DNA from: Natronoarchaeum mannanilyticum
GTDB taxonomy: Archaea > Halobacteriota > Halobacteria > Halobacteriales > Natronoarchaeaceae
Assembly: GCF_039522665.1 (NCBI RefSeq)
Contig: NZ_BAAADV010000001.1
Span: 62,001-126,000, forward strand
Reading direction: 5' to 3'
Length of the DNA: 64,000 bases
Position 1 is the first letter of the stretch; every line of letters begins with the position of its first letter. A program made the translations under genes and the position numbers. Under the pieces are notes generated by a model, which saw nothing but the letters and a program-made list of their open reading frames with translations, had not been told where the DNA came from and ran no database searches. Shown here in pieces: positions 16,547-36,486 of this stretch.

Positions 16547-17098
16547 TCAGAGTTCGACGACGCTCTCGCCAGCCAGCGTTTCGGGGACTCGCAGCGTGTG
16601 CGTCGTGGTCGCCCCGGCCGCCGTCGTCAGGCGGACCGTCACCTCGTCGCCGGGCGATAGGCCCTCCCCCTCGTCGAGTCCCGCCTCGCCGTAGATGCGG
16701 ACGTACCCGATGTCGCTCCCCTCGGTCAGTACCGCGTCGTCGTCGCCGACGACCTCGACGGAGGGAGACGGCTCGACGCCGTCGCCGACCGTCTGGACCG
16801 ACGCCGACCCCAGGTCGACCGAGTCGGCCCCCGGTGCCGTCCGAACCCTGAGCTTGACCGTCTCGATGGTCCCATCATCGCCGACCTCACCGAGCGCCGA
16901 GACGACCTGCACTCGTTCGGTGAGTTGGTCGAGGCTCTCCTCGCCCGTCTCCTCGGCCTGAGCCTGCAGCGCGAGCGCCGTGTTCAGCAGGAGCGACGCC
17001 GCGATCGCCGCGACGAGGACCGCCGCGATGAACACCACCAGCAGCTCGACGCCGACCTGCGCGCGGTCGTCCTCTCCGTGTCGCCGGCCCAAATCCAT
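16547..17098 (-). CDS. Archaellin-like (flagellin N-terminal-like) protein
   Basis: A 183-residue protein whose first 60 residues closely follow the archaellin pattern: a charged leader, DDRAQVGVELLVVFIAAVLVA, then LLLNTALALQAQAEETGEES. The prepilin-peptidase-type site would be near the DDRA junction. The rest is a Thr/Val/Asp-rich beta domain without Cys. It could be a minor archaellin, a FlaG/FlaF-like stator component, or a pilin; no archaellum assembly genes lie next to it. It has its own AT-rich promoter (TATTTTAGCC about 20 nt upstream). Confidence 0.75.
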   Translation of the reverse strand: MDLGRRHGEDDRAQVGVELLVVFIAAVLVAAIAASLLLNTALALQAQAEETGEESLDQLTERVQVVSALGEVGDDGTIETVKLRVRTAPGADSVDLGSASVQTVGDGVEPSPSVEVVGDDDAVLTEGSDIGYVRIYGEAGLDEGEGLSPGDEVTVRLTTAAGATTTHTLRVPETLAGESVVEL

Positions 17099-27354: not shown

Positions 27355-28125
27355 TCACAGCAGCAACTCGATTTCTAACTCCGTCTCGCGGATCGTCGCG
27401 TCGTCGGCCGCACAGGTCGCTTCGACGTCGCCGGTGCTTCCCGACGGCCCGTCCACGTCCGTCCATCCGTTCTCGTCGAAGTACCGCTCCCAGGCGTCGG
27501 CGTGGGTCGAATCCTCGATGGCGACGGTCAGGTTTCCGGACGACCTATTGAGGCCCGTCCGGTCTTTCGTCGCGCGGATGCGAAGCGTCGACGACGTCGA
27601 CACCGACGACGGCTGCGTGGCCGTCAGGTTCGTGTACGACACGATGGCGCGATCGGGGCCGCTCGACGACGTCGTGCAGACGAACTCGGGCGGCCGCACC
27701 ATCACGCTGTGTCCATCGTCGGCGCGGAACGCCGCGCCGAGTTCGTAACTGATCTCGGTCCCCTCGTGGTTGTAGTCGAGCGTGCCGACGGGCCCGTCGT
27801 ACCAGGGAACCCCGTCGACGGACACGTTCAACCGGGTGCTGTCGTCCACGCTCACGCCGCCGCCGCGCGGGTTAAGCTGGCTCAGTCGTTCGACGCCGCG
27901 GCCCGTCTGCAGGTCGCTGAAACTCACCGTCATCGTCTCGAACGCACGCTCGGCGTTCCTGTTCTGTTCGTTGATCTGCGCCTCGCCGAGCGCGCCCATG
28001 CCGAACACGTACACGAGTCCGACCGACGTGATGATGATCGAGAACACCAGGATGAACGCCAGCACGTCGCTGACCGCCCGGTCGTCCGTGGGGTCGGGCC
28101 GTCGCATCGGCGTCGGTCCGATCAT
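27355..28125 (-). CDS. Pilin-like protein, last gene of pilB-pilC operon
   Basis: A 256-residue protein starting MIGPTPMRRPDPTDDRAVSDVLAFILVFS: a charged leader, then DDRAVS and a hydrophobic helix, the archaeal type IV pilin-like layout. The remaining 200 residues are predicted beta-rich and extracellular, with three Cys residues including one near the C-terminus. It belongs to a haloarchaeal family of unknown function (I recall DUF numbers in the 726x/728x series for these operon partners, unverified). ATG 28125 overlaps the stop of the upstream gene (ATGA). Confidence 0.72.
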   Translation of the reverse strand: MIGPTPMRRPDPTDDRAVSDVLAFILVFSIIITSVGLVYVFGMGALGEAQINEQNRNAERAFETMTVSFSDLQTGRGVERLSQLNPRGGGVSVDDSTRLNVSVDGVPWYDGPVGTLDYNHEGTEISYELGAAFRADDGHSVMVRPPEFVCTTSSSGPDRAIVSYTNLTATQPSSVSTSSTLRIRATKDRTGLNRSSGNLTVAIEDSTHADAWERYFDENGWTDVDGPSGSTGDVEATCAADDATIRETELEIELLL

Positions 28126-28613
28126 GCTTCCTCCAGCGTGATCTTGTCGTCGACGGTCTCGTTGTAGGTGATCCTGATGTCGCCGCCGGTGACGGAGGTC
28201 GGTTCGACGGCCGTCACGTTCTTGAACGGCACTTCGACGTCCTCGGACGTCTGGCTCGCGGAGAGTATCAGACACGTTTCCCGATCCCACGTCCCGCACG
28301 CGTCGTCACCGTGTGCAAGTTCGATGCGATAGGAGCTGCCAGCGACAGTATTCGGGTGTGAAACAGTGACGTTCGTCGTGCCGTTCGATGATCGGTTCGC
28401 CGCCTGGTCGACGGCGGTGATCTCCGCCCCGAGGCGTTCCCCGATCGTCTCCATCTCCTGGTAGGCCGCGCGGTCCATCTGGCTTTCGAGCATCGTCGTC
28501 GTCCCGATGAACAGCCCCGAGATCAGGATCGTGGTGATACCGATCGTCAGCACGTGAGTCAGCGCCGTCGAGACGCCGCGGTCGTCCGTGCTGAAGGTTC
28601 GTTTTCGTCTCAT
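28122..28613 (-). CDS. Pilin-like protein of pilB-pilC operon
   Basis: A 163-residue protein starting MRRKRTFSTDDRGVSTALTH followed by a TM helix, the DDRGVS motif matching archaeal prepilin processing sites. The C-terminal part is beta-rich with a C-x5-C pair (CGTWDRETC) likely to form a disulfide. Overlaps neighbours on both sides by 4 nt (ATGA), so it is translated in series with them. Function inferred only from its operon. Confidence 0.72.
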   Translation of the reverse strand: MRRKRTFSTDDRGVSTALTHVLTIGITTILISGLFIGTTTMLESQMDRAAYQEMETIGERLGAEITAVDQAANRSSNGTTNVTVSHPNTVAGSSYRIELAHGDDACGTWDRETCLILSASQTSEDVEVPFKNVTAVEPTSVTGGDIRITYNETVDDKITLEEA

Positions 28614-29047
28614 GGTGCGCTCACGTTGATCGTGGTTTCGCGCTGGACGGCTGACGTTTCGTAGATGATTCGGACCTCTGCCCAGTCGATTTCGGCGTCC
28701 GAATCTGATGGCCCGGTTTCGACCACGGTGACGTTGACGTACGTCGGACCGGACGCCGCGGTGCTGTTCGCTAACAGGTTGTTGTACGTCGAGACGTTCT
28801 CTTCGAGCTCGTCCGGGTAGCCATTGTCGACGTCCTCGTTGACCTCGTGGATCAGCGTGGCCGTCGTGTTCTCGACCGACTGCTCGACGCCGGTCCCGTC
28901 GGCCACCGTCTCGACGGTGCCGCTCGATCCGACGCTGGCGGTAAACAGCGTCGTCGAGAACACCAGCGCGATGGCGATGAGTATCAGCGCGAACGACACC
29001 GCGCCCGCGAGGATGAGCTGGCCGCGATCGGATTGTGTGTCTATCAT
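28610..29047 (-). CDS. Pilin-like protein of pilB-pilC operon
   Basis: A 145-residue protein: MIDTQSDRGQLILAGAVSFAL and a TM helix to about residue 36, then a Thr/Asn/Glu-rich extracellular region. The SDRGQ segment before the helix is like its operon neighbours. No Cys. Lies 2 nt after the upstream gene and overlaps the next by 4 nt. Confidence 0.72.
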   Translation of the reverse strand: MIDTQSDRGQLILAGAVSFALILIAIALVFSTTLFTASVGSSGTVETVADGTGVEQSVENTTATLIHEVNEDVDNGYPDELEENVSTYNNLLANSTAASGPTYVNVTVVETGPSDSDAEIDWAEVRIIYETSAVQRETTINVSAP

Positions 29048-29049
29048 GG

Positions 29050-29694
29050 TTACCAGATGATCGTCAGCCGCACCTCTACGACGTTGTAGATGTGGTTCGA
29101 CTCGGACGTCGCCGGTGGGATCGGATAGTTCTCATCGTGCGCCTCTCGAAGTGTAAGTGGGTCCGAGTCATCGGTACACGACGACGTTAGCGTCTGGTCC
29201 TCGTATAGCGTGACAGTGTGTGAGACGGTGATCGACTTGCGAAGCGCGTTCCCCTGTTCGATGACCGATTGTTCACCTCCTTCGATCGCGTCTTCGCCCT
29301 CTTCCGGTCGATACACTGCCTTCATGGTGTAACTGCTGTATCTCTCCGAGAACGTCTCCGTAAGCATCGTCCCCAGCGAGTTGTTGATCTCATCGCCGTT
29401 GCGGTAAGCCCCCTCCGCGCCCGTTGACCCATTGAACCTTCCGTCTCCGGAAGTGTCCCAGCACCGTAACGTCGCCGAGAGATTGCCGTCCTCGTCGGCG
29501 ATCCTGAGAACGTCGGTCGCCTGCTGCCCGACGTCTGACTGGACGCCCCTGTCGATCGTCCCCGAAGTCGAGGGAAGCAACACCGCCGAGTTTAGCGCCA
29601 TCAGCACTGCGGTGAGCAGGATCATCGCGCCGATGATCCCTTCGAGGGTGTAGGCCTGTCCACGGTCGTCGTCGGATCCACCGTTCCCGATCAT
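29050..29694 (-). CDS. Pilin-like protein of pilB-pilC operon
   Basis: A 214-residue protein with N-terminus MIGNGGSDDDRGQAYTLEGIIGAM and a TM helix; the RGQAYTLEG stretch, with Glu about 6 residues after the putative cleavage Gly, is the most prepilin-like of the set. The large soluble part has two Cys (CWDTS and SSCTDDS). ATG 29694 is preferred to GTG 29703 because it leaves a 2-nt gap from the preceding stop at 29697-29699. Confidence 0.72.
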   Translation of the reverse strand: MIGNGGSDDDRGQAYTLEGIIGAMILLTAVLMALNSAVLLPSTSGTIDRGVQSDVGQQATDVLRIADEDGNLSATLRCWDTSGDGRFNGSTGAEGAYRNGDEINNSLGTMLTETFSERYSSYTMKAVYRPEEGEDAIEGGEQSVIEQGNALRKSITVSHTVTLYEDQTLTSSCTDDSDPLTLREAHDENYPIPPATSESNHIYNVVEVRLTIIW

Positions 29695-29696
29695 GG

Positions 29697-30233
29697 TCAC
29701 CACACCCTCACGACTAGTCTGTACGCCGGACCAGGATCGTCTACCCAGTCGTTATCCCCTACGGTGACGATTCGAGCCGCCGTCGAGGTATCGCGTCCCT
29801 CCGGCGACGGCCCGACTGCCGCTTCGTCGGCGTCGATATCGGCGTCGTCATCGTCGAGAGCGATCGGACCCTCGCGATCAGTTCCGATAGTGGTTAGCGT
29901 CACGTTGACCTGAGTGTTCGAGGAGACGCCGACGGCTCTGCGAAGGTCATCCTCGTCCCCAGCGAACCAGTAGTTGATCTCGCTGCTGGTTAGCTCGTTC
30001 GTCCCCTCATCACCGGTCACGTTGTCGGCGATCAACATCCCGATCCGGTCGGCCTGGCTGTCGGGGCCCTCGTCGGCGATCGCCTGCTCGTAGGGGGTGA
30101 ACAGCGACGGGAACATGAGAAACACCGCGCCCACGACCAGCAGGAAGATGCTGATGCCGACCGCGAAGTCCTGGACGGTCTGGGCGCGCTCGTCGTCGCC
30201 GAACGCCGCGCCGGGAAGTCGATCGCCGGACAT
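29697..30233 (-). CDS. Pilin-like protein of pilB-pilC operon
   Basis: A 178-residue protein starting MSGDRLPGAAFGDDERAQTVQD, then a strongly hydrophobic helix (about 24-44) and an acidic extracellular domain. DDERAQ replaces the DDRGQ/V motif of its neighbours. It follows pilC by 1 nt. Function inferred from context as a minor pilin or pseudopilin. Confidence 0.72.
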   Translation of the reverse strand: MSGDRLPGAAFGDDERAQTVQDFAVGISIFLLVVGAVFLMFPSLFTPYEQAIADEGPDSQADRIGMLIADNVTGDEGTNELTSSEINYWFAGDEDDLRRAVGVSSNTQVNVTLTTIGTDREGPIALDDDDADIDADEAAVGPSPEGRDTSTAARIVTVGDNDWVDDPGPAYRLVVRVW

Positions 30234-30234
30234 G

Positions 30235-32280
30235 TTATCCGACGACCGCCCAGACGGCGAGCGCGATAGTCACCAGCACGACCACGAACTTGCAGCCGCT
30301 GAGCAGATCCGCGTCGCGGATGTAGCCGCTGATCAGGCCCGACAGGATCGCCTGCATCGTCACGGCGTGGAAGAACAGCATCGACATCAGCTGGGTGTCG
30401 ACGTTGGCTCCCAGCGCCGCGGGGCCGCCGGCGCCGCCGCCCCCGCCCGCGCTGTCGGTCAGCCCGGCCATCACGTCGAGGAACTGCGTCTGCAGGATCG
30501 CCATCACCGCCAGCAGCGTCAGGTACGTCATGATGATGATGACCATCTGCATCCGCGTTCGTGACTTGCGCTCGCGGACGATGTCGTCCTGGTTTTCGCT
30601 GGCCTGCGCGGCGGTCGAAAGCACGTCCGAGATCTGGCTCGACGCCTCCTGGGCCTTGCTGATCAGCTTCACCGTGCGGGCGAGTCGCGGGACGTGGTAC
30701 TTGTTGTTGAACTCGACCAGCGCGTCCCGCAAATTCATCCCGTAGTTGACCTTCGCGTACATCGTCTCGAACTCGGTTGCGAGTTTCCCCGTGGACGTCT
30801 CGGCGACGGTGTTGAACGACTCCAGCAGCGTCAGCCCGGTGTCGTTGGCGCTCGAGAGCTTCCGGAGGTTCTCCGAAATCTCACCGAGTACGCGCTTTCT
30901 GTAGCGGACGTTCCACTCGTAGAACACCGTCAGCGGCACCAGGATGATGTACAGCGGGAGGTAGACGTACACGAACGTCCCCCAGACGGGGTTGGACTTC
31001 ATCGCACCCAGCGACGTCGGCGCCGAGCCCGCGACCAGCGCGGTCGAGACGATGACCAGCGCGGCGGGGACGGTCAGCGCCAGCGTCATCAGCGGGTTGT
31101 CCCGGAAGAAGATGTGCGGCCGCCGGAGCACGTCGAGTGTCTCCAGGGTCCCCTCGCGGTTCTTGATCCGGTCGAACACGCTGAACTCGCCGGTGTACGC
31201 CTCGATCAGGCCGAGATCGAGTAGGCCGCTGTCTTTGTCGACTTGCACCCACTGGCTCGATCCCTGCGGGTTGAGGAACCCGTCGCCGACCTCGTCTTCT
31301 TTCACCGTCGAGACCAGCACCAGGAAGCCCAGCCCCGTCAGCGGGATCATCCCGTAGACGGTGCCGTACAGCATCTCGGTCCTGCTCTGGCCCATCATCT
31401 GCATGATGACGAGGATGATGATCAAGAGCAGCGGGAACAGCGACAGCGTCATGTACATCTCGCCGAACAGCTCGAGGGTCTCGAGAGTGAGCTCCTGTTG
31501 CTGCTTGGCGGTTCGCATGTGCTTTTCTTTCTTGTCGTTGAGAAAGTCCTGCATGTCGCCGCCGCTGTTGACGATCGACAGCATGTCGGTGAGGAACTGG
31601 CTCAGCTCGTCGCTGGGCGTGTTCATCGACTGGTTCCGGATCGCCGAGCGGTAGTCCGTGTCGAAGTACTCGGTCTCCTGGACGATGCTCTGGAACTCCT
31701 TTGCGACCTCGCCGTACGTGTCGTCGGCTTTCGCCATCGCCTCCAGAATTTCGAGCTGGTTGAGCCCCCCGATCGAGAGGGCGTACATGAACGAGACGGC
31801 GTCGGGCAACAGCATGTTGATCTCGCGCTTGCGCGCCGACGATCTGGAGTACGGCACCGCGATCAGCGTCCCGAATCCGATGCCGAACCCGATCGCGCCG
31901 AACACGAGCCCGCTGGCGAAGATGATCGCCGGTATCTTGACCGTCTGGATGAACTCGAGCACCGCCTCGTTGGGGACGGGCATCCCGAGCAGCGGTTCGG
32001 TGCTGCTGAACACGCCGATCGAAACCAGCGAGTAGCCGACCAGGATCCCGAGCACCCACAGCACGACGCCGCTCATGACGCCGATCGCCAGCGCGCGCGA
32101 GATGTACATCTCGACGGTGACCGGCATCCGCGCCTCGCCGAGCTTTCGCTCGACGTCCCTGACGAAGTCGCTGTCCTCGCTGAACAGCCGGTCGTACAGC
32201 GGGTAGAACGCGTCGCCGAGCCCGCTTCCGGTGCTGAATCCGCTGCCGCCCGGTCCGTTACCGGCCGTATCCAGGCTCAT
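30235..32280 (-). CDS. pilC: Type IV pilus/type II secretion platform protein PilC (duplicated TadC-like)
   Basis: A 681-residue polytopic membrane protein made of two T2SSF-like halves. In half one, SFMYALSIGGLNQLEILEAM, then ELSQFLTDMLSIVNSGGDMQDFL; in half two, KLSSANDTGLTLLESFNTVA, then NLRDALVEFNNKYHVPRLARTVKLI. TM segments occur in clusters near 70-180, 280-330, 410-470 and 590-680. PilC is the inner platform on which the PilB ATPase drives pilin assembly. It starts 2 nt after the pilB stop and is followed by five pilin-like genes. Confidence 0.9.
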   Translation of the reverse strand: MSLDTAGNGPGGSGFSTGSGLGDAFYPLYDRLFSEDSDFVRDVERKLGEARMPVTVEMYISRALAIGVMSGVVLWVLGILVGYSLVSIGVFSSTEPLLGMPVPNEAVLEFIQTVKIPAIIFASGLVFGAIGFGIGFGTLIAVPYSRSSARKREINMLLPDAVSFMYALSIGGLNQLEILEAMAKADDTYGEVAKEFQSIVQETEYFDTDYRSAIRNQSMNTPSDELSQFLTDMLSIVNSGGDMQDFLNDKKEKHMRTAKQQQELTLETLELFGEMYMTLSLFPLLLIIILVIMQMMGQSRTEMLYGTVYGMIPLTGLGFLVLVSTVKEDEVGDGFLNPQGSSQWVQVDKDSGLLDLGLIEAYTGEFSVFDRIKNREGTLETLDVLRRPHIFFRDNPLMTLALTVPAALVIVSTALVAGSAPTSLGAMKSNPVWGTFVYVYLPLYIILVPLTVFYEWNVRYRKRVLGEISENLRKLSSANDTGLTLLESFNTVAETSTGKLATEFETMYAKVNYGMNLRDALVEFNNKYHVPRLARTVKLISKAQEASSQISDVLSTAAQASENQDDIVRERKSRTRMQMVIIIMTYLTLLAVMAILQTQFLDVMAGLTDSAGGGGGAGGPAALGANVDTQLMSMLFFHAVTMQAILSGLISGYIRDADLLSGCKFVVVLVTIALAVWAVVG

Positions 32281-32282
32281 CG

Positions 32283-35200
32283 TCAGTCATCACCGTCCTC
32301 GGCGTCGAAGTCGACGTACTCGAACCCCTCTATCTCCTTGTCCGGACCGCCGCCGTCGTCCTCGTCGTCTTCCGTGAAGATCGAGTCGTCGTCCGCGCTG
32401 TCGATCTCGTCGAAGATCGACCCCGACTCCTCGACGTCCTCGGCGTCGTCGTCGCTGAACACGTCACCGCCCTCACCGGTGTCGAACATCGACTCGGCGG
32501 CTGCCGGATCGACCGACGTTCGGTCCTCGGTGGCGTCGGTCCCCTCGTTCTCGTCCGGCGCCGACGCGTCCGCGGCGTCGGGCGTCCGTTCGGCCTCCAC
32601 GTCCGGCGTTTCGGCGCCCGGCGTCCGTTCCGGGTCCGGCGTTTCGGCGTCCGATGCAGTGTCCGCGGACGTGTCGACGCTCGGCGTTTCGGCGTCGGTC
32701 GGCGGTCGGTCCGTCGAGTCCTCGTCAACCGGTCGGGCGGGCTCCGCGTCGGCGTCCGGTTCGGTCGCCGGTTCGTCGGTGGCCGGTGCCGGTTCGGCTG
32801 GCTCCGGTGTCGGTTCGTGTGGTCCAGTCGCTGGTTCATCCGGCTCAACCGATTCGGGGGCGTCGTCAGCCGAACTGTCCGGTTCCGAGTCCGACCGGTC
32901 GCCGAACGGGCCGTCGACGTCGCCCTCGAAGTCGTCGGTCGTCGGACCGCCGAATCCGTCGTCCGCGTCGTCGAACAGCGACCCGTCGTCCGCGGGTTCG
33001 GGGTCGTCGCTGAACACTCCTCCCGCTTCGGCGTCGTCGCCGAAGACGGAGCCGGCTTCGGTCTCCTCGGCATCGGGTTTCTCGGAGCCGAACCCGGTGT
33101 CGGCGTCTTCGGTCTCAGTCGCGGCTGCTGCTTCGGTCGACTCGGTTTCGGCGGGCTCCGCGTCGGCGTCCGGTTCGACCGGTTCCGTTTCTGCGTCCGC
33201 CTCGGCCGAGTCCGCTCGGGCGGCCGCTTCAGCAGACTCCGCCCCGACATCCGGTTCGGCGGACTCGGGGTCGGCGTCGGCAGGTTCCGTCGCTGCTTCG
33301 GCGTCCGTCCGGTCGGTCGACGCCTCGGCTTCAGCCGTTTCGATGGGCGTATCCGTTTCGGACGGCTCGGACGCCGAGTCCGCGTCGATGCCGGAGGCAG
33401 CGTCCGACTCCGCCGGTTCGGCAGCCGGCAGCGCGTCCGAAGTTTCGCTCGACTGGTCCTGCGAGGGCGACGCCGACTCCCCAGCGTCGACGGTCTCGCC
33501 CCCGCTCGCCGGCGACGGTTCGTCCGGCGCCTCCGCGTCGTCCGGGCTCTCGATGGCCGGCGTCGACGCGCTCGGCGAGTCGGCCGCGTCGGCGGACGCT
33601 CCGTCGGCCGCGGCGTCGGCGTCGCCGGTCTCGGTGTCGAGGTTGTCGATGGCGTCCCGGGCTTCGGACGGTACCTCCTCGCCCGACGCGTCCGCGTCGG
33701 CGCCGTCGTCGAAGAAGAAGCCGCCGTCGTCGCTGAACCAGTCGGGCTCCTCGACGTCCTCGCCGGCGTCGCCGAAGGAGATGCTGTCGCCGTCGATGCC
33801 GAAGGCGTCCTCGTCGGGCGTCGAGTCGTCGAACTCGAACTCGTCGCCCCCGTCGTCGCCGGTCAGTTCCGGCTCCGAGGCTTCCTCGACGCCGTCGAGG
33901 GCGCTCGCCAGACCGCTCGGGGTCTTGCCCTTGTACTCCTGGAGGATCGACTCCTCGGCGCGTTCGAGAACGTCGGTCACCTCGTTCATCCCCTCCTGAT
34001 CGGGGTCGGGACGGGGGACGAGCTCTTCTTTCTCGGGATCGACGTCGATCAGGACGCTCTCCATCTCCCGGAGGTCTTCGAGACTGTCCTCCAGAACGCC
34101 GTTGGCGATCAGCGTCAGGATCGTCTCCGGATCGTTGATGAAGGCCTGGATCGTCGCCGCGACCTGCGCGTACTCGTTGAGGTCGTTCTTGATGAGGTAC
34201 GCGAGGATCACCCGGCGCTTCTCGAGTTCCCGGTCGAGCCGCTCCTGGCCCCACCCGCGGTCGAACTTGATCTCCTCCAAGGTGTTCGACTCGCCCATCT
34301 TCAGGAACTCGTCTGTCTCGGCCTGCCACTGGTAGACGTCCTGGACGTTGATTTCGTCGTTCTCGGCGTCGTAGTGGTTGACCTCGGTCAGCACCTTGTT
34401 CCGGCGGACCTTGTTGCCCTGGACGCGGGTCTGGGTCTGGATCGACACCAGGTCCAGCGCCGTGAACATCGTCTTCGAGACGTTGATCGGCGCCGTGGTG
34501 AACCGCTTGAGCACTTCGCCGACCGAGTCTGCGTGGAACGTGGTGTAGGTGGTGTGGCCGGTCGACATCACCTGGAACAGCGTCCGGCCCTCCTCCCCGC
34601 GGATCTCGCCCATCACGATGTAGTCGGGACGCTGGCGGAGCGCGGCCTCCAGCAGGTCGAACTCGTCGACGTCGCCCTGCGAGTCGTCAGAGAACGACGG
34701 GCGCGTGATGCTGGCGATCCAGTTTCGCTGGGGTAGCTCGACCTCGCGGGTGTCCTCGATGGAGACGATCTTCGTGTTGCTCGGGATGAACAGCGAGACG
34801 GCGTTCAGGCTCGTCGTCTTCCCCGAAGCCGTACCGCCCGCGAAGATCAGGCTCTTGTGGTTCTCGATGCAGAGCCAGAGGAACGCCATCTCGTCGAGCG
34901 AGAACGTCGTCCAGTTGATCAGGTCGATCGGCGTGAAGGGGACGTCCTTGAACTGACGGATCGTGTAGTTGGTCCCGTGGTCGGACACCTCGCGCCCCAG
35001 CGTCAGCTGAGAGCGCGACCCGTCGGGTAGCGTGGCGTCGACCTGGGGTCGGCGCTTGCTGATCCCTTTGCCCGAGCGCTGGGCCATCTTGACGACGAAG
35101 TCGTCGAGCTCCTCCTCGCCGTGGTAGATGTTCGTGATGATCTGCTCGTAGTCGCTGTGGTAGACGAAGACGGGCGAGTTGTACCCGTCGCAGGAGATGT

Positions 35201-36452
35201 CCTCGACGTTGATGTCGTGCTTGATCGGGTCGATCCGCTCGTAGCCGATGAAGTTCCGCTTCAGCAGGTAGAGTAGCTTCTCGACCTGGTACTCCGTCAG
35301 CGTCTCGGGGTCGTCCTCCAGTACGGCGGGTTCGGGTCGCGCCTCGATGCCGTGGAGCCCGCCGTCGTCCTCGTCGTCGGGCTCGACGTCGCGGCCGAGC
35401 AGCTTCTTGATCTCCGTCACGTAGTCGCCGCTGCCGCTACCGGGGCTGGTAAAGAGGTCGTAGCGCTGGAGCAGTTTCTTGGTCTCCCGATCGATCACGT
35501 CCTTGCGGACTGACTCGTCGCCCCCGGTCGCGATGTCGTCGTCGGCGTACTTGATCGCGGTTCGGAGCTTCCCGGAGAGGAACTCCTGCAGGTCGATTTC
35601 GATCTCGTTGAGGTGGGGCTCGATCGCGTAGTACTTCTTCTCGTTTTCCTTCTCGGAGTGAAACAGGATGATGAACGAGTAGGGTTTGTTGACCCAGTAG
35701 CGGTTCTCCTCCCGGAAGTGGATCTTCTTCTCCATCGGGACGGCCTTCTCGAGGTCGTAGCGGTTGACCACGGTGGTGTGGCCCTCGACTGTCGAGAAGA
35801 ACTCGTCTTCGGCCTCGTGTTCGACGTTGACGGTCCGTTCGTCGACGAGATCGGCCAGCTCCTCGGCCTTCGAGTTGCCCTCGAACAGCTTGTTCTCTAC
35901 GTCCTCGGGCTCGAAGCCGAGATGCTCTTCGGGCTCGAAGGGAACTTTCTCGCCGTCCTCGCGGGGCGCCTCGACGCCGGTGCCGCGCCCCTCGTAGTAG
36001 AACTCCTGTTTGAAATGCTCCCACTCGTAGGCGTCCTTGACGCAGGGCGTCTGGACGGGGTCGATGTACTCCCAGAGCGTCCGGTCGACGTCCTCGGCGA
36101 TCTCCTCGTGGTCGCCGAACACGGACCCCAGCTCGTCGGGATGAAATCCGAGATACGGGACGGGGTCGAACTGCACGCGGTTCCAGTCGGCTCCGGACGG
36201 TTTCTCCGGTTCGGCGTCCTCGTCGTCGTCGGCACCGGCGTCGAGGCCGAGACGCTCGTCCTCGGGATCCGGATACAGCTCCGAGACCTCGGTACCGTAT
36301 CCGAACTCCTCCATGAAATCCGCCCACGTGTACCCCCCGACACTCGCGGGCGTCGCGTCCGATGACGGATCCCCGTCGTCCTCGGAGGTGGCCGACTCAT
36401 CGGCGCCGTCGAATCGTCCAGAACCCGACTGGTCGGCGTCGTCGATAGCCAT
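32283..36452 (-). CDS. pilB: Type II/IV secretion ATPase PilB with giant acidic C-terminal tail
   Basis: A 1389-residue PilB/FlaI-class ATPase. An acidic 90-residue N-terminus and an N-terminal domain to about 400 precede the ATPase core: Walker A GGTASGKTTS at about 539-548, an Asp-box IEDTREVELP, Walker B IVMGEIRGEE at about 612-621, and a HTTYTTFHAD His-box. From about residue 862 to the end is a low-complexity acidic tail of about 530 residues with repeated motifs (see findings). It should power pilus or secreted filament assembly with PilC. ATG 36452 is chosen over TTG 36476 because a TATA-like TTTTATG lies about 30 nt upstream of the ATG and overlaps the TTG region. Confidence 0.93.
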   Translation of the reverse strand: MAIDDADQSGSGRFDGADESATSEDDGDPSSDATPASVGGYTWADFMEEFGYGTEVSELYPDPEDERLGLDAGADDDEDAEPEKPSGADWNRVQFDPVPYLGFHPDELGSVFGDHEEIAEDVDRTLWEYIDPVQTPCVKDAYEWEHFKQEFYYEGRGTGVEAPREDGEKVPFEPEEHLGFEPEDVENKLFEGNSKAEELADLVDERTVNVEHEAEDEFFSTVEGHTTVVNRYDLEKAVPMEKKIHFREENRYWVNKPYSFIILFHSEKENEKKYYAIEPHLNEIEIDLQEFLSGKLRTAIKYADDDIATGGDESVRKDVIDRETKKLLQRYDLFTSPGSGSGDYVTEIKKLLGRDVEPDDEDDGGLHGIEARPEPAVLEDDPETLTEYQVEKLLYLLKRNFIGYERIDPIKHDINVEDISCDGYNSPVFVYHSDYEQIITNIYHGEEELDDFVVKMAQRSGKGISKRRPQVDATLPDGSRSQLTLGREVSDHGTNYTIRQFKDVPFTPIDLINWTTFSLDEMAFLWLCIENHKSLIFAGGTASGKTTSLNAVSLFIPSNTKIVSIEDTREVELPQRNWIASITRPSFSDDSQGDVDEFDLLEAALRQRPDYIVMGEIRGEEGRTLFQVMSTGHTTYTTFHADSVGEVLKRFTTAPINVSKTMFTALDLVSIQTQTRVQGNKVRRNKVLTEVNHYDAENDEINVQDVYQWQAETDEFLKMGESNTLEEIKFDRGWGQERLDRELEKRRVILAYLIKNDLNEYAQVAATIQAFINDPETILTLIANGVLEDSLEDLREMESVLIDVDPEKEELVPRPDPDQEGMNEVTDVLERAEESILQEYKGKTPSGLASALDGVEEASEPELTGDDGGDEFEFDDSTPDEDAFGIDGDSISFGDAGEDVEEPDWFSDDGGFFFDDGADADASGEEVPSEARDAIDNLDTETGDADAAADGASADAADSPSASTPAIESPDDAEAPDEPSPASGGETVDAGESASPSQDQSSETSDALPAAEPAESDAASGIDADSASEPSETDTPIETAEAEASTDRTDAEAATEPADADPESAEPDVGAESAEAAARADSAEADAETEPVEPDADAEPAETESTEAAAATETEDADTGFGSEKPDAEETEAGSVFGDDAEAGGVFSDDPEPADDGSLFDDADDGFGGPTTDDFEGDVDGPFGDRSDSEPDSSADDAPESVEPDEPATGPHEPTPEPAEPAPATDEPATEPDADAEPARPVDEDSTDRPPTDAETPSVDTSADTASDAETPDPERTPGAETPDVEAERTPDAADASAPDENEGTDATEDRTSVDPAAAESMFDTGEGGDVFSDDDAEDVEESGSIFDEIDSADDDSIFTEDDEDDGGGPDKEIEGFEYVDFDAEDGDD

Positions 36453-36477: not shown

Positions 36478-36486
36478 CATAAAACC
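36478..36486 (-). promoter_or_regulatory. Probable TATA box of the pilB-pilC operon
   Basis: GGTTTTATG on the minus strand, ending about 26-34 nt before the chosen PilB ATG, preceded by an AT-rich stretch. Supports a leaderless or nearly leaderless operon mRNA. Confidence 0.5.

Follow-up and report, generated by a model that had tools for sequence, protein, structure and literature searches.

The PilB4-PilC4 operon of Natronoarchaeum mannanilyticum and its cassette of five pilin-like genes, a possible tip or initiation complex of a haloarchaeal pilus

Introduction

Seven genes of Natronoarchaeum mannanilyticum (pilB, pilC, P1, P2, P3, P4 and P5; Table 1) form one tight run on the minus strand of a 64-kb stretch, called the window here, of a 3.57-Mb haloarchaeal assembly. 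Judged by its sequence, the run is an operon of the PilB4-PilC4 class of type IV pilus, a kind that has already been catalogued (Makarova 2016; PMC4858521). The five pilin-like genes are an ancient set of fixed order and a unit of its own, with an order that reaches the methanogens, and they may act as a single complex. The reading followed below, which from sequence is given an even chance, is that of a PilB4-PilC4 pilus with P1-P5 as a fixed tip or initiation complex and a shaft of PilA-type pilins or P4.

In the catalogue (PMC4858521, Figure 4B), the PilB4 locus of Haloferax volcanii, HVO_1160, encodes an ATPase that haloarchaeal additions extend at both its N- and C-terminal ends, together with a pilin set of its own, the roles of which were called unclear. 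Both proteome and RNA data have shown pilB4-C4; these genes are down-regulated in H. gibbonsii on infection with HFTV1 (PMC12542753). A literature search found no phenotype report for PilB4, no tip complex of archaeal pili and nothing on the neighbouring locus tags HVO_1154-1159.

Table 1. Features of the operon, in window coordinates
Feature	Position	Strand	Length and family match	Remarks
pilB4-type assembly ATPase	32283..36452	-	1389 aa; Pfam T2SSE 1.9e-31, PilB3_C 1.8e-06 (weak)	ATG at 36452, stop at 32283
pilC4-type (TadC/T2SSF) membrane platform	30235..32280	-	681 aa; Pfam T2SSF 1.3e-28	match in two stretches
P1, pilin-like, DUF7287	29697..30233	-	178 aa; Pfam 2.5e-34	mature N-terminus QTVQD, Asp at +5
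P2, pilin-like, DUF7288	29050..29694	-	214 aa; Pfam 1e-51	ATG at 29694; mature N-terminus QAYTLE, Glu at +6
P3, pilin-like, DUF7261	28610..29047	-	145 aa, short form; Pfam 1.5e-07	first 8 mature residues acid-free
P4, pilin-like, DUF7266	28122..28613	-	163 aa; Pfam 2.9e-21	begins RG↓VS as PilA does; acid-free; candidate major pilin
P5, pilin-like, DUF7289	27355..28125	-	256 aa; Pfam 3.1e-50	ATG at 28125; Asp at +3; long N-helix and all-beta head
TATA-like TTTTATG, possible promoter of a leaderless transcript	36478..36484	-		some 29 nt ahead of the pilB ATG; putative, read from the sequence

Operon layout and the PilB4 ATPase

The encoded protein families mark the run as a filament-assembly module, and from sequence it is nearly certain that the operon specifies a filament-assembly machine. 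The original prediction had described packing by gaps or overlaps of 1-4 nt; these are gaps of 2 nt (pilB-pilC, P1-P2 and P2-P3) or 1 nt (pilC-P1) and 4-nt overlaps (P3/P4 and P4/P5). The operon is flanked by genes for a sugar/pantoate-type kinase and a HEAT-repeat protein (sequence read by eye), the latter convergent and 21 nt from the operon end, so that neither a prepilin peptidase nor an adhesin adjoins it, as had been stated. The missing peptidase is ordinary, because the sole PibD match of the genome is encoded elsewhere (G000:C1:1058182). A clue to function from conserved neighbours was sought and dropped, since 2 of 80 loci retain the kinase and none the other flankers tested. A sigma-70 promoter scan was set aside as having no meaning in an archaeon.

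PilB consists of an N-terminal extension, a VirB11-like T2SSE domain (residues 464-687) and a C-terminal tail of 611 aa (window 32283-34118) that is 34% Asp/Glu and 3% Lys/Arg. The open frame of PilB4 varies between about 700 and 1475 aa among lineages. Relatives of the PilB core numbered 271 in a single genome scan, and the top 80 are named haloarchaeal loci with 91-96% identity. The match to the catalogued class lies in a VirB11-like, euryarchaeal-clade ATPase that carries additional domains at its N and C termini (an identity-based assignment; 1389 aa), an adjacent PilC/TadC gene (Pfam T2SSF) and a co-encoded pilin set with a class III signal in all five members; P5 also fits arCOG02911 by description (duplicated, 250-550 aa). 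Because the operon matches the PilB4 system of PMC4858521, it does not represent an undescribed kind of machine, and this part of the original prediction is not retained. The extra ATPase parts, the PilC/TadC partner and the own pilins are shared with Haloferax PilB4-PilC4. Orthologous P1-P5 operons occur in named Haloferax loci, including one of H. gibbonsii (L039), and the H. volcanii control was positive for DUF7287 and DUF7288. The window operon differs from the Haloferax system, for which HVO_1160 was compared by description, in its short P3 and in having no adjoining long P5-like gene.

Two better-known kinds of archaeal system resemble the operon less. The PilB3-PilC3/PilA adhesive pilus (H. 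volcanii; Halobacterium pil-1) shares with it a same-clade ATPase and PilC, and the closest paralogue of the window PilB in its own genome is PilB3-like, with 55% core identity (identity and gene context served to assign paralogues). This PilB3-like pair lies at a separate locus (L107, G000:C7), where PilB has 562 aa and no pilin is encoded, as is described for PilB3 loci (PMC6491452), whereas the window operon co-encodes five pilins and thus is not a PilB3/PilA locus. The PilB1-PilC1/pil-2 clade 4C hybrid likewise combines PilB-PilC with several pilins, one of them P5-like, but its ATPase is distant, and its likely representative here is another locus. That locus (L109, G000:C1:428000-447999) holds a second PilB-PilC operon, whose own pilins include one that is P5-like; it is probably of the clade 4C PilB1 type. 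An orphan ATPase of about 625-744 aa with a weak T2SSE-family match is encoded at G000:C1:865000-884999 (L111); similar open frames occur in most of 15 genomes tested, also in genomes with few or no pilus systems.

PilB4 is both commoner and more conserved than the better-studied PilB3. Over a 300-residue core and outside the window's family, PilB4 orthologues are mostly 86-94% and PilB3 orthologues mostly 80-88% identical; among sampled haloarchaea, PilB4, the type with the cassette, was found in 68 of 72 genomes and PilB3 in about 59 of 71. A second PilB4-like copy in one genome (G065:C3:284145-284963; 85% identical) has three TGA stops and is probably a pseudogene.

The five pilin-like proteins

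A charged leader, a class III motif and a hydrophobic helix had been predicted for all five proteins, and each indeed carries the motif with a hydrophobic stretch behind it (P1 DDERA↓QT, P2 DDDRG↓QA, P3 QSDRG↓QL, P4 TDDRG↓VS, P5 TDDRA↓VS); the R-A/G before Q or V is kept across orthologues (70-76 sequences per family). A strict class III scan of the 64 kb yielded six signals in 383 open stretches of at least 90 aa, and four of these are P1, P3, P4 and P5. P2 fails the strict filter solely because of its conserved Glu at +6. The cluster of five signals is not due to chance. The fifth signal of the strict scan belongs to a lone archaellin-like gene of 183 aa on the minus strand (window 16547-17098; RAQVGVELLVVFIAAVLVAAIA), with no archaellum genes seen adjoining it.

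Acidic residues of the N-helix are distinctive. Asp is present at +5 in all 76 P1 orthologues, Glu at +6 in all 73 P2 orthologues and an acidic residue at +3 in 56 of 70 P5 orthologues; P3 and P4 have no N-helix acid (73/73; the first 8 mature residues for P3), although some methanogen P4 proteins do have Glu at +6. Across orthologues, identity to the window's proteins is 39-57% in the N-helices and 20-30% in the ectodomains; set against the 91-96% of the PilB core, the latter range fits parts that are exposed at the surface and carried by a motor that stays constant. The length of P3 runs from 132 to 461 aa, with about 300-330 aa in most orthologues. The short form seen in the window also occurs in some Natrialbaceae-type loci. 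Profile comparison relates P1 to P2 and makes P4 and P5 mutual paralogues; further P5-like genes of the same genome lie at G000:C7:209817, C7:582876 and C1:441023, the last inside the second pilB-C locus.

The extracellular domains had been described as beta-rich. This holds for the AlphaFold2 model of P5 (pLDDT 92.5), which has a 62-residue N-helix and an all-beta head, but not for that of P2 (pLDDT 84), with a helix broken near residue 39-42 and a mixed alpha/beta head. Foldseek found no match in the PDB for the P5 and P2 models at E<=1e-3; PDB sequence profiles gave no significant relative of P2, P4 or P5. That none of the five is a standard major pilin agrees with the absence of any Pilin_N (PF07790) match in P1-P5, even at E<=1, while the same family identifies ten PilA-type pilins elsewhere in the genome.

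Distribution of the cassette

The gene-neighbourhood survey that the original prediction had proposed found P1 to P5 in the same order and on the same strand behind pilC in 54 of 55 named haloarchaeal loci, the 55 being those with enough downstream sequence; pilC follows pilB in the named loci. Among 97 near-complete haloarchaea, DUF7288 (P2) is present in 92 and DUF7287 (P1) in 91, and DUF7287 adjoins all 105 tabulated copies of DUF7288. In 72 genomes with PilB4 positions, PilB4 and DUF7288 occur together in 67, PilB4 alone in one, DUF7288 alone in none and neither in four (Fisher p = 5e-6, phylogeny ignored); G066, with a marginal DUF7288 match (E 9.5e-5) that falls below the family cut-off and was left out, is counted under neither. 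The cassette lies within 8 kb of PilB4 in 64 of the 67 genomes having both. Four of the five haloarchaea without DUF7288 in this sample also lack PilB4. G044 keeps PilB4-C4 and PilA-type pilins without P1 and P2, so the cassette is not indispensable everywhere. A wide spread of the families without PilB and PilC, which would speak against the predicted multi-subunit filament machine, is not seen: DUF7288 is found in 217 of 296 genomes of the phylum and in none of its 20 listed PilB-negative genomes (two result tables compared).

The set also holds together away from the motor genes. Several genomes of family f3 have full P1-P5 sets apart from pilB-C or inverted to it, and second copies are mostly whole cassettes and seldom single genes. 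In methanogens and other relatives the P1-P2-P3-P4-P5 order is kept, sometimes convergent with pilB-C and often standing alone; at two or three of the loci concerned, an open frame recognised by nothing but its class III signal stands in the P3 slot. There P5 is usually followed by a longer P5-like gene (about 420-510 aa). In Haloferax and Halorubrum, P5 is immediately followed, on the opposite strand, by a long P5-like gene of some 450 aa or more (L024, L028, L035, L038, L051, L052, L062, L067 and L074), which is a candidate sixth component. It may be conjectured that the long P5-like genes encode an adhesin-type component. At one further locus (L041), about 3.6 kb separate the pilB and pilC fragments and none of P1-P5 was detected, possibly owing to an insertion or disruption.

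PilB4-only genomes and the pilus shaft

In at least three genomes, of 98-99% completeness and 3-7 contigs (G029, G047 and G060), PilB4 beside the cassette is the only PilC-linked PilB type found; no PilB3-like, archaellum-like or clade-4C ATPase was found in them. Each has an extra ATPase with a weak T2SSE match (about 625-744 aa) resembling the orphan common to most tested genomes, and G029 has one further sub-threshold ATPase hit. PilA-type pilins number four in G029, five in G047 and three in G060, and on sequence PilB4 is the best candidate for their assembler there, although these PilA genes could be unassembled.

These genomes bear on the question of whether the PilB4 pilus is self-contained, that is, whether one of the five proteins, most likely P4, forms the shaft with the other four as minor pilins and PilA uninvolved. 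Such a pilus, whose probability is put somewhat short of even, was predicted in PMC4858521, where the PilB4 system is assigned its own major pilin (arCOG03926) and no dependence on PilA. P4 would suit the part in being short, in its PilA-like VS start and in its weak profile similarity (E ~0.5) to PilA-type archaeal pilins of solved structures; on the other hand, it is single in each cassette, unlike expanded major pilins such as the ten PilA copies here, it has no significant Pilin_N match, and PilA genes are still kept in the PilB4-only genomes. When pilB3-C3 is deleted in H. volcanii, PilA pili are lost though pilB4-C4 is reported to be expressed (review, PMC4371748); this argues against PilB4 standing in for PilB3 as the builder of PilA pili in this species and agrees with an own major pilin. 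A counterpoint is that the PilB4 protein of H. volcanii was detected in glycerol minimal medium only (PMC7305310).

Proposed tip or initiation complex

For a PilB4-PilC4 pilus with P1-P5 at its tip, the operon would be a complete assembly module; homology and distribution support PilB4 as the assembly ATPase, PilC4 as the membrane platform and P1-P5 as class III signal proteins maintained as one fixed set. PibD would cut all five pilins after R-A/G, and PilB4-C4 would extrude the processed proteins. P1-P5 would not be alternative shaft subunits; one of each would join in a hetero-complex of fixed composition, from which the filament starts and which caps its tip. The order within the complex may be set by the conserved N-helix acids (Asp5, Glu6, acidic 3, none, none), and the shaft would be made of PilA-type pilins from other loci or, under certain conditions, of the PilA-like P4. 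The tip-complex step is suggested by single copies, fixed order, mostly whole-set duplication and the distinct conserved N-helix acids.

Bacterial minor-pilin operons (fimU-pilVWX-pilE) and type II pseudopilins are likewise single-copy sets of varied sizes and differing N-helix acids. The acid-code argument takes these bacterial pilins as its model and is one of analogy, and they also serve as the working analogy for a tip complex; P1-P5 have no detectable sequence relation to them, and P5 and P2 no PDB fold match. The wider proposal, that P1-P5 are an ancient obligate five-subunit tip or initiation complex across Halobacteriota, encoded as a cassette of fixed order, arranged by a position-specific acid code of the N-helices and starting PilA shafts via PilB4-C4, is held to be less likely than not.

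The five helix-plus-head subunits also recall the five type II secretion pseudopilins, and the operon could encode a short pseudopilus-like machine for secretion or DNA uptake in place of a long adhesive pilus. This is improbable: among the genes next to the operon none was recognised as serving export, as a secretion channel or in DNA uptake, the neighbours differ between genomes, and the cassette can stand apart. Haloarchaeal-class archaea have no outer membrane. Its sister systems in archaea form adhesive pili (PMC6491452, PMC4292770). Secretion and adhesion had both been considered in the original prediction; nothing found points to secretion, and for the pilus with a P1-P5 tip complex, adhesion, aggregation or surface contact is from its sequence the most likely role. 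The set, which had been predicted as a possible dedicated machine, need not be self-contained, as ten PilA-type pilins and extra long P5-like proteins are encoded elsewhere and the cassette of some lineages sits apart from pilB-C.

A role of the five proteins mainly as unpolymerised, membrane-displayed pilins, for example in regulating motility or adhesion from the membrane, is very unlikely. H. volcanii without PilB3-C3 keeps some adhesion through membrane pilins, and pilin H-domains regulate motility (PMC4371748), while the tight operon with pilB-C and the co-loss with PilB4 favour assembly.

New here are the cassette that is fixed across the phylum, the pattern of acids and the genomes with PilB4 only. 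The cassette supplies five named candidates for an archaeal pilus tip, and PilB4-only species are a natural setting for asking whether PilB4 builds PilA filaments. If the wider proposal is true, no pilus motor of haloarchaea would be more universal than PilB4, and PilB4 would need no major pilin of its own.
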